A stretch of 48,033 nt of DNA. Source: a virus. The position numbers were made by a program, and so were the translations under genes. Of the stretch, positions 16,396 through 23,474 are shown in pieces. The stretch is taken from IMG/VR virus record IMGVR_UViG_3300044655_001351, positions 1-48,033 of that record; one strand, 5' to 3'. Each line of letters opens with the position of its first letter. The first letter of the stretch is position 1. The notes beneath the pieces are model-generated. The model worked only from the letters and a program-made list of their open reading frames with translations, did not search any database and had not been told where the DNA came from.

Positions 16396-16848
16396 TTATA
16401 GGTAGGTATCCTGATTGTCGTGTAACTCTAACCCTTTTGAAGGGCTGTGTTCCCTAGACACTGTAAGTTTTCCAGAGTACTCTTCTGGAATAATTACTTC
16501 GTTATTTGGGTTAGCAGACCATCTAGCTATCTCAGTTGGTTGATCTCCAAGTCCCTTAATCTTTTCATATACATGGGAAGGTACATCAACAAACTTAACT
16601 AGTTGTGCTGAACCAGGGTCATCAAATGGATGGAGCTTAGCTACTTCAAGATCTGCCGTACCCCACCGGCCATTAACCTTATTAATACTCTTATCTCTAT
16701 CCCGCGTTATTCTCTGTTCTAGCCATGGGAGCATCTGTTTACGGTTGGGATCGGGCAGTCCACCATTTGGAGCGTACTCACCACGATACACACGAACATG
16801 TCCTTCTGGTACCGGAGGGTCACCAAACTGGTTAGGGTTAAGCGTCAT
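16396..16848 (-). CDS. Possible ADP-ribosyltransferase-fold protein, 150 aa
   Basis: The order of motifs resembles small R-S-E-type ADP-ribosyltransferases. HVRVYRGEYAPNG (residues about 17-29) would hold the arginine, GRWGTADLEVAKLHPF (about 61-76) the middle strand-helix, VKFVDVPSHVY the central strand, and NNEVIIPEEY near 113-122 the catalytic-glutamate region. Such enzymes in phages modify host proteins early in infection. The middle Ser/Thr motif is not canonical and the match was made by eye. It is the last minus-strand gene before the divergent region, a common place for an early host-takeover gene. Confidence 0.55.
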   Translation of the reverse strand: MTLNPNQFGDPPVPEGHVRVYRGEYAPNGGLPDPNRKQMLPWLEQRITRDRDKSINKVNGRWGTADLEVAKLHPFDDPGSAQLVKFVDVPSHVYEKIKGLGDQPTEIARWSANPNNEVIIPEEYSGKLTVSREHSPSKGLELHDNQDTYL

Positions 16849-16942
16849 AGTTAGATATTACATTATCCCCTTGACGGTTGCGCGATGTATATTTTAAACA
16901 TTTTGGCCCAACCTGCGCGTTGGAGCATTGCATCATGAATAG

Positions 16943-16982
16943 TTATCCACAGGGTGAATAGGGCTATGTAAAGTTATCCACA
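16943..16982 (+). promoter_or_regulatory. Two perfect DnaA boxes
   Basis: TTATCCACA occurs at 16943-16951 and again at 16974-16982 in the same orientation, 31 bases apart, next to an AT-rich stretch at 16885-16904. This is the consensus DnaA-binding 9-mer. Two exact copies so close together are unlikely by chance and suggest that host DnaA binds here, for replication or for transcription control. Confidence 0.6.
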
Positions 16983-17353
16983 GGTTCCCCCTAGTTGAGA
17001 ATAGGGCTATTCAGCAGTTGGGTGGTTATCGGGGAGTGGCCCCTGCCTACACCTGACCCCCCCTTGACCCTTTAATGTACGGGGTGTTCTACTCGCTAGA
17101 CACTTAGGTGCTGCTCTTGCGGTGCCGAGTGTGTCTACTGTAGCACACGGGTTCATAGCGTACCTCATAGGGTGTGGAAGAGGTAGTAGCCCGCACACAC
17201 TCAGCAGTGCTCCCCTGCCCCTAGTGGGTCTGGGCGGTGCCCCTCACAGGGCGCCTTCCTTATGCGGCGTGGGTCTAGAAATAGGTCTATGAAAAATGTG
17301 GCAAGACATTACAAAATGCCACCCCAGGAAAAACACTGCTACGAGTTCCATGG

Positions 17354-17372
17354 GAGTTGTTATGCACAACTC
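17354..17372 (+). promoter_or_regulatory. Inverted repeat before the first rightward gene
   Basis: GAGTTGT-TATGC-ACAACTC is a perfect 7-bp inverted repeat with a 5-base centre, 25 bases before the ATG at 17398 and just upstream of its GAAAGGGG ribosome-binding site. It could be an operator or an mRNA leader hairpin. Confidence 0.5.
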
Positions 17373-17397
17373 AATTCCTTTTGAAAGGGGAAAAACT

Positions 17398-17982
17398 ATG
17401 GAAACAACAACGGAAACTGTCCAGAGTAAGCTAGCACGCTTACTCACCACCTCGGCTAATGCCAGTGCCATCGAAGTGTGGGAGGTGCTCGGAGAAGTTC
17501 GTAAGAACTACGACGATGCAACCGACCTCATGGAGATGGCGTTGCCATTGAAGGCTTTCTTCTACGACTGTGGCAACACAGCCGAAGAGTTGGCTGAACT
17601 GCTGACCATCAAGAAGGTTGATGCGGATATCCTCCTTATCCAAGCCCGTGCTATGGGGCTTGTTGCGGGCGACAAGGTGTCCCTTATCAGCGTTGATGAA
17701 ATCGTGGGCACGGCTTGTCGTACCACTGGTGTCCGTGTCAAGAAGACCATCGGCTTCATCGAAGAGGCCGAGCTTCGTGGCAAAGATACTGACTGGTTGT
17801 TCAACAAGTTGAGCGCCGCGGTCAGCAAGGCAATCGCTCCCAAGCGTGAGCCCAAGGCTGAAGATGTGCAGGCTCGCCTGAACATCAAGAAAGCGACCGA
17901 CCTCCTTGAGGCTGCGAAAGCACACCTCACCGAGGCAGATGTGACCGCAATCAACGCCATCTTGGCGGCTGTCACTAAGTAA
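17398..17982 (+). CDS. First rightward gene; possible HTH protein, 194 aa
   Basis: The frame is open from 17296, but GAAAGGGG six bases upstream points to ATG 17398. The protein is helical. Residues about 61-89 (TAEELAELLTIKKVDADILL then IQARAMGLV) look like a winged-helix or HTH segment, and a Lys/Ala-rich helical C-terminus follows. It opens the rightward gene run and precedes a structured RNA block, so it may be a highly expressed regulator or nucleic-acid-binding protein. The family is unknown; codons are noticeably more GC-rich than in the genes to the left. Confidence 0.72.
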   Translation: METTTETVQSKLARLLTTSANASAIEVWEVLGEVRKNYDDATDLMEMALPLKAFFYDCGNTAEELAELLTIKKVDADILLIQARAMGLVAGDKVSLISVDEIVGTACRTTGVRVKKTIGFIEEAELRGKDTDWLFNKLSAAVSKAIAPKREPKAEDVQARLNIKKATDLLEAAKAHLTEADVTAINAILAAVTK

Positions 17983-18050
17983 TACATTTCCTGTGGGACT
18001 CGTAGCATCCTGAAATAAGGGAGACGCTCTGTGAAGGGCATCGCCCACAT

Positions 18051-18066
18051 CGACCTGAGTATGTCG
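18051..18066 (+). repeat. Covarying hairpin, copy 1
   Basis: CGAC-CTGAGTAT-GTCG, preceded by CAT and followed by TTAAAA. The same loop recurs at 19646-19661 with the stem changed to CAAC/GTTG, so base pairing is kept while the sequence changes. Confidence 0.6.
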
Positions 18067-18463
18067 TTAAAAGGCTTCCCACGCAATGTGGGGCATCAAG
18101 GGGTAAGCACTGCTTATATAAGTATCGGATAAGACCGAGTATCTGTCTGGCCGAGTGTTGTGGGCTGCGTAAGCACAAAGAGTACCCACCTTGATTGACA
18201 CTCATTCAAAGGCTTGCAGAATCTGGCCGAGTGTAGCAATACACTTCGTGCTGGGCGCCGTGAACGCTGGTAGCCAACCGCATGGTTGGTGCAGAATCGT
18301 TAGTAGCAGAGGGGTAATGCCCTCTAAGGCTGGTAGAAGTGACAGAGCAGTAGGTCCGAGATACGTGGTCGGAGAGTGCCCGACCGAGGGGTGGGCAAGG
18401 CATGCGGGATTACCCCCTTGCTGAGCCCATCCCTTACCGCCAATCATTGGGACAATAGGTGAG

Positions 18464-18493
18464 GACGGCGCCTCGGGCAACTGGGGCGCCGTC
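18464..18493 (+). terminator. GC-rich hairpin ending CCGTC-TAA
   Basis: GACGGCGCC pairs perfectly with GGCGCCGTC over a 12-base loop, followed by TAA. It is the first of a family of similar hairpins (20196, 21921, 23416) along the rightward genes. It may end or process the structured RNA. Confidence 0.5.
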
Positions 18494-18621
18494 TAAACCA
18501 CAAGACTCGTGGGAGTTAGTTGACCCCACATAAACCAAGGCAGCATGAGCCCCCCGCTCTTTGCGCCAGAGACTCCATTCTCCCAGTGGTTGGGGTGGCT
18601 CATGAGTCCTGAGGAGGACAC

Positions 18622-18879
18622 ATGTTAACTAATAAGTACCACACCACCAAAGATGGCCGTAACTGGCTGTATTGCGAAGACGTGGAACTGGACTGGTCTC
18701 AGTTCAGTTACAGGGATTACAAAAGGTGCGAAAAAGAGGTGCTTGAACCTCAGTTAAAGAAACTAGGGTTCAAGAACTTCTTTTGGTTCAACGGGGAATC
18801 CGATTCATTCGGTCCTCTTACAAGAATGGGCAACATGAACGACCCTGAAGGTCGTACTGTGTCGTTTGTATACGGTTAG
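18622..18879 (+). CDS. Small hypothetical protein, 85 aa
   Basis: A strong Shine-Dalgarno sequence (GAGGAGGACAC before ATG) fixes the start. The protein is rich in aromatic residues (DGRNWLYCEDVELDWSQFSY, FFWFNG) and probably a small alpha/beta fold, with no recognised family. It sits between the structured RNA block and the next small gene, and its 5' leader includes the CATGAGCC/GGCTCATG stem. Confidence 0.7.
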   Translation: MLTNKYHTTKDGRNWLYCEDVELDWSQFSYRDYKRCEKEVLEPQLKKLGFKNFFWFNGESDSFGPLTRMGNMNDPEGRTVSFVYG

Positions 18880-18991
18880 AGAATCAACCGAGCCACTTCA
18901 ACCACTGACCGTTCTCGTTCTAATGATTAGGCGGTGCGAAAACAGTTGTTGAGAACTTCCTTTTGCTTAACTCCCACGAAAGGGGAACCCT

Positions 18992-19366
18992 ATGAAAAAG
19001 AAGAAGTATGTTCAAGACGACAAGCACTCCAGAGAGGAACTTATGGACCGTTATGGTTCAGGGTGGCTCATTGAAAGGTGGACACGCACGCATGATCGTG
19101 TGTGCCCTTTCACTGGTAGGCAGGTCACACTGGAGGACGTGGAAAAGGGGATGTATTCCCTTCCACGAATCCAAGGCGACTCAGCGTACGGGTACGAGGT
19201 GTACCCAACCGATGAGTGGCTGATGGAGTTGTTCCAAAAAGGAATGTACTCCATTCTCACTAGCACATACCGAGAAGACTTCCTCGAATTCGTACAGTCA
19301 ACAGACCTTGAGCTTCAGAGTTTTGCTCAAAGTCTGAATCTCGAAGCAACCAACAACCCCGCATGA
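18992..19366 (+). CDS. Hypothetical protein, 124 aa, between inverted repeats
   Basis: Start at ATG 18992 behind GAAAGGGGAACCCT. The protein has a Lys-rich N-terminus, then EELMDRYGSGWLIERWTRTH, a single CPFTGRQVT segment, and a helical C-terminus. No family is recognised. The gene is bracketed by CGGTGCGAA (18932) and its exact reverse complement TTCGCACCG (19386), each next to a copy of the palindromic element, and the tRNA follows at once. Confidence 0.7.
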   Translation: MKKKKYVQDDKHSREELMDRYGSGWLIERWTRTHDRVCPFTGRQVTLEDVEKGMYSLPRIQGDSAYGYEVYPTDEWLMELFQKGMYSILTSTYREDFLEFVQSTDLELQSFAQSLNLEATNNPA

Positions 19367-19410
19367 GGGGTTCTCAGCAATTGAATTCGCACCGTCTAAT
19401 GATTAGAACG

Positions 19411-19483
19411 GGGGTGTTAGCTCAGCGGATAGAGCAACAGTTTCCTAAACTGTAGGTCGTAGGTTCGATCCCTACACACCCCA
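19411..19483 (+). tRNA. tRNA-Arg (anticodon CCU)
   Basis: A complete 73-base cloverleaf. The acceptor GGGGTGT pairs with ACACCCC, followed by discriminator A. The D-arm is GCTC/GAGC, the anticodon stem ACAGT/ACTGT with loop TTCCTAA gives anticodon CCU (reads AGG), and the T-arm GTAGG/CCTAC has loop TTCGATC. The 3' CCA is not encoded. It begins four bases after a copy of the palindromic element. It would supply a rare Arg codon during infection. Confidence 0.95.
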
Positions 19484-19836
19484 CTTTGGGCATAGCACGA
19501 AGTCGCACAACAATCTGCGATGGGTTTACTGGGGTTGCTACCATTACCCAAACGGTTGCACGTGCCGTTAGTGACGTGTCAGGATTGATAGCGACCTGCG
19601 TATTATGTCTCACCATACACGTGAGGCACATGGCTATTAGTGCATCAACCTGAGTATGTTGTAAAACTGCTCACCCCCCCAGGGAGGCATTGGTGCAAAG
19701 GTTATCGCGGGGCGCAAAGGACGTCCGGACTACCCCAGTAGTGGTTCGTTTCCACTACCTCCCACTCTCTAATGATTAGGCGGTCTTGAGGTGGTGCTGT
19801 TCAACCTGCCCTTTGGGGCAAGAAACGGAGTACCAC
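19484..19836 (+). ncRNA. Non-coding block after the tRNA, with stems
   Basis: No supported gene occurs in these 353 bases. They contain the second copy of the covarying hairpin (19646-19661), GTAGTGG/CCACTAC (19738-19758), an ACGG/CCGT stem, and a copy of the palindromic element at 19768-19779. It may be a second structured RNA or a processed leader for the next gene. Confidence 0.4.
19646..19661 (+). repeat. Covarying hairpin, copy 2
   Basis: CAAC-CTGAGTAT-GTTG, again preceded by CAT and followed by TAAAA. Compared with 18051-18066 the loop is identical and one stem pair has changed on both sides. Confidence 0.6.
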
Positions 19837-20145
19837 ATGAATAAAGAACGGCAGTACGCAAAAATCGTCCGCGATGCAAGCAGGGATAAGCAAGACCTGT
19901 TGTCTTACGCAGGCGAACTAATGATTAGCCTTGATGGTGTTGATATGAACACCGTTGATCTCAGTCCCCTGGCTGAGATGATCACGCACGTTCGTGCGTT
20001 GGACTGGGCTCGTCACTCACTCATTGCACTTATCGCTAAGGGCAATGACTTGGACAAGGCGCAAGCCTTGCTCCCTACTGTTACTGAATTGGCTCGTGCG
20101 TACAAGCGTGCGGTCAGTGGCGTTAACGCCATACTGAGTAAGTAA
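19837..20145 (+). CDS. Small helical hypothetical protein, 102 aa
   Basis: The start ATG 19837 follows ACGGAGTACCAC, whereas the longer frame from 19786 would run into the leader. The protein is all-helical (KIVRDASRDKQDLLSYAGEL ... ALDWARHSLIALIAKG) with no recognised domain. A full copy of the palindromic element sits in frame inside it at 19918, coding ELMIS. Confidence 0.7.
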   Translation: MNKERQYAKIVRDASRDKQDLLSYAGELMISLDGVDMNTVDLSPLAEMITHVRALDWARHSLIALIAKGNDLDKAQALLPTVTELARAYKRAVSGVNAILSK

Positions 20146-20195
20146 ATCCACATTCAACAGCACCATCTCAAGACTGTCTAACCGTTAGACCAACC

Positions 20196-20216
20196 ACGGC
20201 GCAATCGTAGCGCCGT
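20196..20216 (+). terminator. GC-rich hairpin ending CCGTC, abutting the palindromic element
   Basis: ACGGCGC-AATCGTA-GCGCCGT is a perfect 7-bp stem, and its last base is the first base of the element TCTAATCATTAG at 20216. A variant element, TCTAACCGTTAGA, lies just upstream at 20177-20189. No T run follows. Confidence 0.5.
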
Positions 20217-20241
20217 CTAATCATTAGCCTAAGGAGGCAAA

Positions 20242-20373
20242 GTGAATAAGCGTCAGACCCGTAAAGCAATCAAAAGAGTTGTTCGTGTCCAGCAAGACAT
20301 TGACGCCTTGGAAGAGGCGTTGTTCATCTTGCGTAGTGGCCTTATCCTGCGTGGCGTCAGGGTGGTGGACTGA
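20242..20373 (+). CDS. Small basic helical protein, 43 aa
   Basis: A GTG start at 20242 with an excellent ribosome-binding site (AAGGAGGCAAA), 43 codons, and a TGA that overlaps the next ATG (TGATG). The product begins MNKRQTRKAIKRVVRVQQDI, then DALEEALFILRSG, a basic helix followed by an amphipathic one, which could bind nucleic acid or protein. Function unknown. Confidence 0.68.
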   Translation: MNKRQTRKAIKRVVRVQQDIDALEEALFILRSGLILRGVRVVD

Positions 20374-21901: not shown

Positions 21902-21920
21902 TACATAAGGCTAATGATTA

Positions 21921-21951
21921 GACGGGGGCGCACGCAAATCGTGCCCCCGTC
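21921..21951 (+). terminator. GC-rich hairpin GACGGGGGC/GCCCCCGTC
   Basis: A perfect 9-bp stem (21921-21929 with 21943-21951) overlaps the end of the palindromic element at 21911-21921, between the AAA+ gene and its VWA partner. It could reduce or process the transcript so that the two partners are made in different amounts. No T run follows. Confidence 0.55.
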
Positions 21952-21996
21952 TAGTCAGCCTAATAACCCAATGAATACAAACAGAACGGGAGTTCT

Positions 21997-23409
21997 ATGA
22001 CAGTTTCAAATGCAACTGCTTACCCAGGTTGGCTTGACCGCAATGACATGGAGTCATCAGCCTGGCAAGTGCAAGAGGGCGCACCAATTCGAGGTGACGC
22101 TTGGACAGACATTGACGGTAAGCGCATGCGAGTGCCAATGGGTGACGATGAGTTATCCCGTGCCGTCAGGTTTCATGAGATGGTTCACGCCAAGGTATCG
22201 CCGTCTCGGTTAATCATTCCCGACTGGATGCGTGAAGTTGATCCTGGGCTAGTCGCCGCATGCGAGGAAGTGCGTGTCAACATGCTTGCTAAGCATGCTG
22301 GTGCCAACGTTGACAAACTTGAGGACGGTTCAGAGAAGCGCAATGCCGAACTGCTAGTACGCAGTAAGAACATTGCTGGTCTCACGAATCTAATCGTTAG
22401 TACCTTTGGCACTAAGGTCAACAACACAGTGATGCGTGCCATTAAGAAAACTGCCAAGGAATTGGACATGCCTGCTGTTGCTGACTTGGCTACGTCAGTG
22501 CGTAAGACACTTATGGATCATACCAAGTGGGTTCGCAAGGGTCATGAGTCATACTTCAGCAGGTACGCAGATACCACTGAGAAAGAAGTTACCGAAGACG
22601 GCATTGAAGTAAAAATGCCTCGTGGGTATGAACACACACTCAGTCTTGCTCAGGCACTTAGTAGGTTCTCTAAACAATCTGCTGAACTTCCTAAGTGGTT
22701 AAATCTTAAGCCTGGTGAGAAGTATGGTGAGGAAGTTTCTATTGGTAGTGACGGTGCTAAGTTTGCTGTCCCTATCGTTGCCAACCTTCATCTCACTGAA
22801 CGCATCGCTGGCCGTATGGGTCGTAAGCGTATTGCCACTGACATTGGTACTAACCCACGACGCATTGCTCGTGTGCTCACTGATCCTGATCGTAGGATCT
22901 TTGACCGCAGAGCACGTGGTCTTGGGGGTGTCGTACTCATTGACCAATCAGGTTCAATGCGATTGGATACTGACGACATCTGGAGTATCATCAAGGCCGC
23001 TCCTGGCTGTACCATCATCGGTTATAGTCATGCGCCAGGTAGTAGTGACGTACCCAACATATGGGTCATGGCAGAGAATGGCAGGGTAGTCAAGACTGTC
23101 CCATCAGGTAATGGTGGTAACGGAGTTGACGGGCCTGCTCTACTGTTCGGTATCAGTAAGCGCAAGAAGGGCGAGCCATTCGTGTGGGTGTGTGACGGTC
23201 ATGTCACTAACGCACATGACAATCAGTTTGCCAAACTTGACGAGCAGTGTGTCAAGTTAGTAGCCAAGCACAACATTCACATGACACCTGACGTTGATGG
23301 TGCTGTCAAGGCACTCAAGTCAATTGATCGTGGCGACAAGTTAGAGACAACATTCACTGGTCCACTACGGACTACTGTGGCACGGCTGAACCGTAAGGAA
23401 GCAGCCTAA
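21997..23409 (+). CDS. VWA-domain protein with HExxH motif, module 1
   Basis: A 470-residue CobT-like protein. The N-terminal half has a zinc-peptidase signature HEMVH (residues 60-64) followed by CEEVRVNML, which matches the E-x-R helix supplying a third ligand in related proteins. The C-terminal half is a von Willebrand A domain: GGVVLIDQSGSM (D316-M321) is the first MIDAS motif and WVCDGH supplies a late aspartate. The middle MIDAS threonine is not obvious (NGGNGVDGPALL). It should work with the AAA+ ATPase encoded just upstream. GGGAG precedes the ATG closely. Confidence 0.82.
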   Translation: MTVSNATAYPGWLDRNDMESSAWQVQEGAPIRGDAWTDIDGKRMRVPMGDDELSRAVRFHEMVHAKVSPSRLIIPDWMREVDPGLVAACEEVRVNMLAKHAGANVDKLEDGSEKRNAELLVRSKNIAGLTNLIVSTFGTKVNNTVMRAIKKTAKELDMPAVADLATSVRKTLMDHTKWVRKGHESYFSRYADTTEKEVTEDGIEVKMPRGYEHTLSLAQALSRFSKQSAELPKWLNLKPGEKYGEEVSIGSDGAKFAVPIVANLHLTERIAGRMGRKRIATDIGTNPRRIARVLTDPDRRIFDRRARGLGGVVLIDQSGSMRLDTDDIWSIIKAAPGCTIIGYSHAPGSSDVPNIWVMAENGRVVKTVPSGNGGNGVDGPALLFGISKRKKGEPFVWVCDGHVTNAHDNQFAKLDEQCVKLVAKHNIHMTPDVDGAVKALKSIDRGDKLETTFTGPLRTTVARLNRKEAA

Positions 23410-23415
23410 TCATTA

Positions 23416-23446
23416 GACGGGGGCATGGGTAAACCGTGCCCCCGTC
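23416..23446 (+). terminator. GC-rich hairpin GACGGGGGCA/TGCCCCCGTC
   Basis: A perfect 10-bp stem directly after the VWA gene, starting within the palindromic element that also contains the gene's TAA stop. It closely resembles the hairpin at 21921-21951, so the VWA gene is bracketed by two near-identical hairpins. Confidence 0.58.
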
Positions 23447-23474
23447 CAATCCAACAACAAGAAGGGAACCACCC

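Follow-up and report, generated by a model that had tools for sequence, protein, structure and literature searches.

The window analysed here, the whole 48,033-nt stretch of the viral record IMGVR_UViG_3300044655_001351, carries a rightward early region in which the first gene is followed by 639 nt (17983-18621) without a credible gene. The only ORFs of this block are 65-92 aa long, mostly with TTG as start codon, or run antisense to gene 1; three of them were compared with Pfam and PHROG and gave no significant match, and none is common to the more distant relatives, so the claim of the earlier note that the block is gene-free holds. Ahead of gene 1, positions 16826-17046 are conserved in relatives, contain DnaA-box-like TTATCCACAG repeats and lie between divergent gene blocks, the features of a probable replication origin. 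Long inverted repeats were searched across the window, and their arms were then checked in a free fold of 17200-20260. The features are as follows, with P the pairing probability in the transcript fold:

17398..17982, + strand: gene 1, the first rightward early gene, 194 aa, without known family
17224..17263 with 18015..18054, + strand: gene 1 outer stem, 40 nt, gap 752, P 0.80
17337..17360 with 17984..18007, + strand: gene 1 inner stem, 24 nt, P 0.91
18055..18432, + strand: non-coding insert of 378 bases, limited to the window and its close relative L022, folding z = -1.9
18584..18601 with 18890..18907, + strand: gene 2 stem, 18 nt, P 0.96
18601..18624, + strand: gene 2 start hairpin, holding the Shine-Dalgarno sequence and the start codon
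18622..18879, + strand: gene 2, 85 aa, no assigned function
18910..18959 with 19367..19416, + strand: gene 3 stem, 50 nt, P 0.82, its 3' arm beginning at the first base past the stop codon
18992..19366, + strand: gene 3, 124 aa, no assigned function
19411-19484: tRNA-Arg(CCU), about 790 bases from the block, with two genes between
19768..19804 with 20153..20189, + strand: gene 4 stem, 37 nt, P 0.87
19837..20145, + strand: gene 4, 102 aa, no assigned function

The two stems of gene 1 are nested, and the first 71 bases of the block are their 3' strand. The stems of the window are 18 to 60 bp long and all are recovered in the free fold, with mean pairing probabilities of 0.80-0.96. With the exception of gene 1, each 5' arm stops 19-37 nt short of the start codon, and each 3' arm sets in 3-15 nt past the stop, a regular spacing by which each stem joins both ends of its cistron and leaves the coding sequence uncovered. 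It is very likely that the flanks of each of these first early genes pair in the transcript into a long stem around the gene. At the same threshold, no such gene-enclosing stems are present in the rest of the window, barring a few weak ones.

The same early region was found in five lineages of uncultured phages (the window with L022, then L020, L023, L028 and L029) when viral contigs were searched with the AAA ATPase and the core hairpin described below. No relative was identified by an AAA ATPase search of the named phage collection, and searches for distant DNA matches in phages and plasmids gave nothing useful. The first rightward gene of every lineage is followed by a gene-free block, which measures about 240-300 bases in the four others and has only one hairpin in common with that of the window; it is thus not a conserved 640-base unit. 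Long stems occur at matching places around genes 1 and 2 in L020, L023, L028 and L029, and around gene 3 in L029 and L022, although the arm sequences are unrelated between lineages. Gene 1 has remote counterparts in L020, L023, L028 and L029; its protein retrieved no relatives from viral contigs, searches with the L020 and L029 proteins retrieved those two only, and its predicted structure is unusable (mean pLDDT 44). Long inverted repeats of more distant phages (L048, L058, L093 and others) were excluded, as they include dispersed repeats in opposite orientation.

Several controls were applied to the stems, with every mismatch type weighted equally. In the 13 gene-phage cases, drawn from five lineages of which several are represented by short contigs, the flanks of a gene score 25-52 against each other, whereas flanks taken from two different genes reach at most 29-30 and shuffled flanks at most 26. 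Genes 1-4 of the window score 41, 26, 52 and 44, 25 of its late genes score 12-22, and one in 400 random spans of the window reaches 26. In the window, the gene 2 stem is the weakest; taken alone, its score of 26 only equals the shuffled maximum, and it leans on its counterparts. Part of the gene 3 and gene 4 scores reflects shared sequence, because palindromes present in some arms can pair with any copy. Shuffled loci totalling 1.37 Mb contained no stem with a score of 32. Among the control genomes, T7 has no gene-enclosing stem at the threshold, lambda has one stem (score 30), TM4 has two that lie within genes, and phiC31 shows just its repeated palindrome.

The hairpin common to the blocks of all lineages is one of three copies in the window:

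18463..18494, + strand: core hairpin, GC-rich, at the same place in the five lineages, with the loop GGGCAACU (GCAAC core)
21920..21952, + strand: second copy of the family, right after the AAA ATPase gene
23415..23447, + strand: third copy of the family, right after the gene at 21997-23409

L029 likewise has three copies, L023 and L028 have four each and the short contig of L020 has one, every one of them on the coding strand of the early region. In 12 members, which had been chosen as good hairpins, seven of the 13 pairs show changes of both bases and pairing is kept in 97% of the cells, exceeding shuffled and slid controls. Fairer evidence comes from the copies at the homologous position (window, L020, L023, L028 and L029), in which the stem changes likewise preserve pairing. 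A scan of 50 other phage loci with the hairpin model gave no clear member; an L031 hairpin that shares the loop was rejected, as it lies outside the homologous place and is unmatched by the model. As judged from these compensated changes, the core hairpin is part of a covarying family that these phages carry only in their early region.

Other repeated or structured elements are present in the same region. For example, the palindrome CTAATSATTAG occurs in 16 copies between 18920 and 30625, in the rightward early region only; L029 has 11 copies of it, and L020 has CTAACSGTTAG instead. It looks like a candidate operator with phage-dependent specificity, and it is our guess that the gene 1 protein binds it. 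The tRNA-Arg gene is followed by a structured element at 19485-19560 (TTTGGGCATAGCACGA ... GCTACCATTACCCAAA), whose inner stems differ in L022, L023 and L028 and which is a candidate small RNA family. A tRNA-like element at 19682-19763 has an acceptor and a T arm without a normal anticodon arm, with counterparts in L022, L023 (4189-4274) and L028 (7321-7410); in the predicted transcript fold of the window, its positions 19691-19715 pair over 1.1 kb with 18549-18568 in the 3' part of the block, in about 20 bp. ARAGORN reports a tRNA-SeC(UCA) at 7509-7578 of L029, which is probably a tRNA-like element and not a tRNA, its anticodon arm being the palindrome ACGTCTAATCATTAGACGT without U33. Finally, a small hairpin at 18051-18066 of the window (CGAC-ctgagtat-GTCG) recurs at 19646-19660 as CAAC-ctgagtat-GTTG and at 7653 of L029 as CGAC-ctgggtat-GTCG.

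The earlier note had taken the block for a large ornate RNA, a member of GOLLD or ROOL or of a new family. The many stems it had pointed out are borne out by folding, since the whole block has a minimum free energy of -270.9 kcal/mol (z = -4.3, 20 shuffles) and its plus strand lies well beyond exact dinucleotide shuffles (z = -6.4, 60 shuffles), with a weaker signal on the minus strand (z -2.1 to -2.8). This fold excess of the block alone, its multi-hairpin fold and a tRNA less than 1 kb away speak for such an RNA. However, the excess is uneven (z = -5.0 for the core hairpin region, just -1.9 for 18055-18432 and -1.6 for the 3' part), lying mainly in one GC-rich hairpin region and the block ends, and an inverted-repeat search and the fold in context both show these ends pairing with outside sequences and not with each other. 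The stem that closes the isolated block has a probability of 0.00 in the free fold of 17200-20260, and the isolated fold is thus misleading. Rfam covariance models run on the whole window at gathering score found tRNA only, and under relaxed thresholds no Rfam family, GOLLD and ROOL among them, matched the block (up to E 10), while 17000-20300 (up to E 5) gave, besides the tRNA, only weak chance matches far under gathering scores and none to GOLLD or ROOL; membership in either family, and in the other large RNAs of Rfam, is therefore dropped. Structured RNA near tRNAs is a likeness to the GOLLD and ROOL RNAs of phages (PMC12286853), whereas the block is not conserved as a unit. GOLLD has a conserved 3' domain and many members of more than 800 nt (PMC12286853); here the block has 639 nt in the window and 240-300 nt elsewhere, with a single hairpin in common and the rest non-homologous. 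GOLLD is often found close to tRNA islands; near the block, as the earlier note saw, there is one tRNA, 790 nt away with two genes between. The GC content of the block (52-59%) is higher than downstream (45-50%), as the note had it, but not higher than in the upstream gene, which is equally GC-rich. What survives of the original reading is real RNA structure, in the form of the fold excess, the covarying hairpin and the long-range arms; a single large non-coding RNA filling the block is very improbable, and 17983-18621 is not a natural unit but the junction of two stem-enclosed early cistrons. The insert at 18055-18432 could represent another RNA, a degraded module or something different. It shows one difference in 222 bases between the window and L022, and this conservation was dropped as evidence because both genomes are mosaic, with many identical stretches.

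The nature of the hairpins and stems leaves three other explanations to be weighed. The core hairpins could be intrinsic terminators without a U tract, being GC-rich hairpins of 12-14 bp of which several copies lie directly past stop codons, but the missing U run, a conserved loop (A17 and A18 are invariant in the family) that termination does not need, and the same-strand genes downstream that would be cut off make this rather unlikely. The inverted repeats, for their part, could be DNA features, that is, ends of exchangeable cassettes or recombination joints whose arms are kept alike by conversion. This is a real rival because L022 has a different gene within the same gene 2 arms as the window, whose protein resembles that of window gene 3, so that genes are swapped between arms; moreover, palindromes lie at the cassette borders. 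On the other hand, the arms are gene-specific, unlike the terminal repeats of a single mobile family, and their mismatches on the message strand comprise 29 G.U against 8 A.C (binomial P 0.0008), compared with 31 G.U and 26 A.C in cross-gene control alignments (Fisher P 0.027, moderately significant). Such a preference on one strand is expected neither of DNA-level repeats nor of conversion, and the wobble bias suggests pairing in RNA; in addition, one pair of the gene 2 stem changes in both arms between the window and L022, from C-G to U-A. We consider the DNA explanation unlikely. It has also to be asked whether the stems are translational switches, in which arms and start-site hairpins would open and close ribosome binding sites by alternative pairing. 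The gene 2 start hairpin is changed on both sides between the window (GTCCT-gagg-AGGAC) and L022 (TCCCT-gagg-AGGGA), and the 5' arm of gene 2 in L023 has an alternative partner in the left flank of the core hairpin, as switching would require; yet the arms stop 19-37 nt short of the start codon in genes 2-4 and the corresponding genes of the relatives, which leaves the ribosome site mostly free, and no trigger is known, so that switches too are improbable.

Processing stems around the 16S and 23S ribosomal RNAs are a feature of bacterial pre-rRNA. The phage stems resemble them in that long-range complementary flanks lie on either side of transcribed units, serially in one transcript, and differ in that they enclose small protein genes and that their cleavage is putative. 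The early message of T7 carries RNase III sites between genes, in local hairpins; these are likewise double-stranded sites between early-message genes, but a scan of T7 gave no gene-enclosing stem at the threshold used here. The CIR repressor sites of phiC31 are repeated symmetric sites. Like CTAATSATTAG, one palindrome repeated in the intergenic gaps of early genes, they and the cluster O palindromes and cluster A stoperators are present as many short intergenic copies for which regulator binding is proposed or shown, and the cluster O and phiC31 sites share its symmetry; operator-type palindromes account for the palindromes alone, not for the gene-specific arms. The cluster O palindromes are 17 bp long (PMC4351075), and the stoperators of cluster A occur as many short intergenic copies (PMC9283540). 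In cluster K mycobacteriophages, the SAS and ESAS repeats lie at translation starts of non-structural genes, with an inverted-repeat consensus that varies by subcluster, and the two ESAS arms, separated by 4-13 bp and sharing a consensus, are both located upstream of the start (PMC3203893). Repeats at early-gene starts and inverted repeats with lineage-dependent sequence are common to both systems, whereas the arms described here flank the gene on both sides and are gene-specific; ESAS elements, with a 13 bp SAS (GGGATAGGAGCCC) and both inverted arms just upstream, were ruled out on this ground, and no SAS-like element of 13 bp was seen at the starts of genes 1-4, where it was looked for. The cluster K SAS/ESAS (PMC3203893) and the cluster O palindromes (PMC4351075) are the nearest described repeats. 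The open full-text literature, which leaves most subscription papers outside, yielded no description of gene-enclosing stems in phages.

The best overall explanation is probably that the block is a junction of stem-enclosed early cistrons whose stems are processed. Within it lie the 3' arms of gene 1, the small conserved core hairpin, and the 5' arm of gene 2 together with its start-site hairpin. The flanks of early genes very likely pair in the transcript into a long stem around each gene; host RNase III would cut these stems as double-stranded RNA, as it does in ribosomal RNA processing, and each cistron would be left as a separate message with protected ends. By analogy with pre-rRNA, it is plausible, though we hold it tentatively, that the stems act as processing stems through which cistrons become separate messages. 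In the main variant of this scheme, the message would be closed, with the stop codon beside the start site and ribosomes passed on from one to the other. A broader possibility, put forward with caution, is an early operon built of modules, each of them a gene, an RNA or a bare hairpin enclosed by a 5'-3' stem of its own and bordered by common palindromes, in which every cistron would be a closed, separately handled message and genes could be swapped between stems, a new mode of phage expression.

The locus is also a caution to those who look for RNAs by eye or fold segments in isolation: a block cut at gene borders can resemble a large RNA when its strands are parts of stems spanning the neighbouring genes. 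Gene-specific complementary flanks offer a testable sequence signature of the proposed arrangement. If it is true, some phages provide each early gene with a stem in the style of ribosomal RNA, which would be a new way of splitting a polycistronic message, or of closing a bacterial message end to end.
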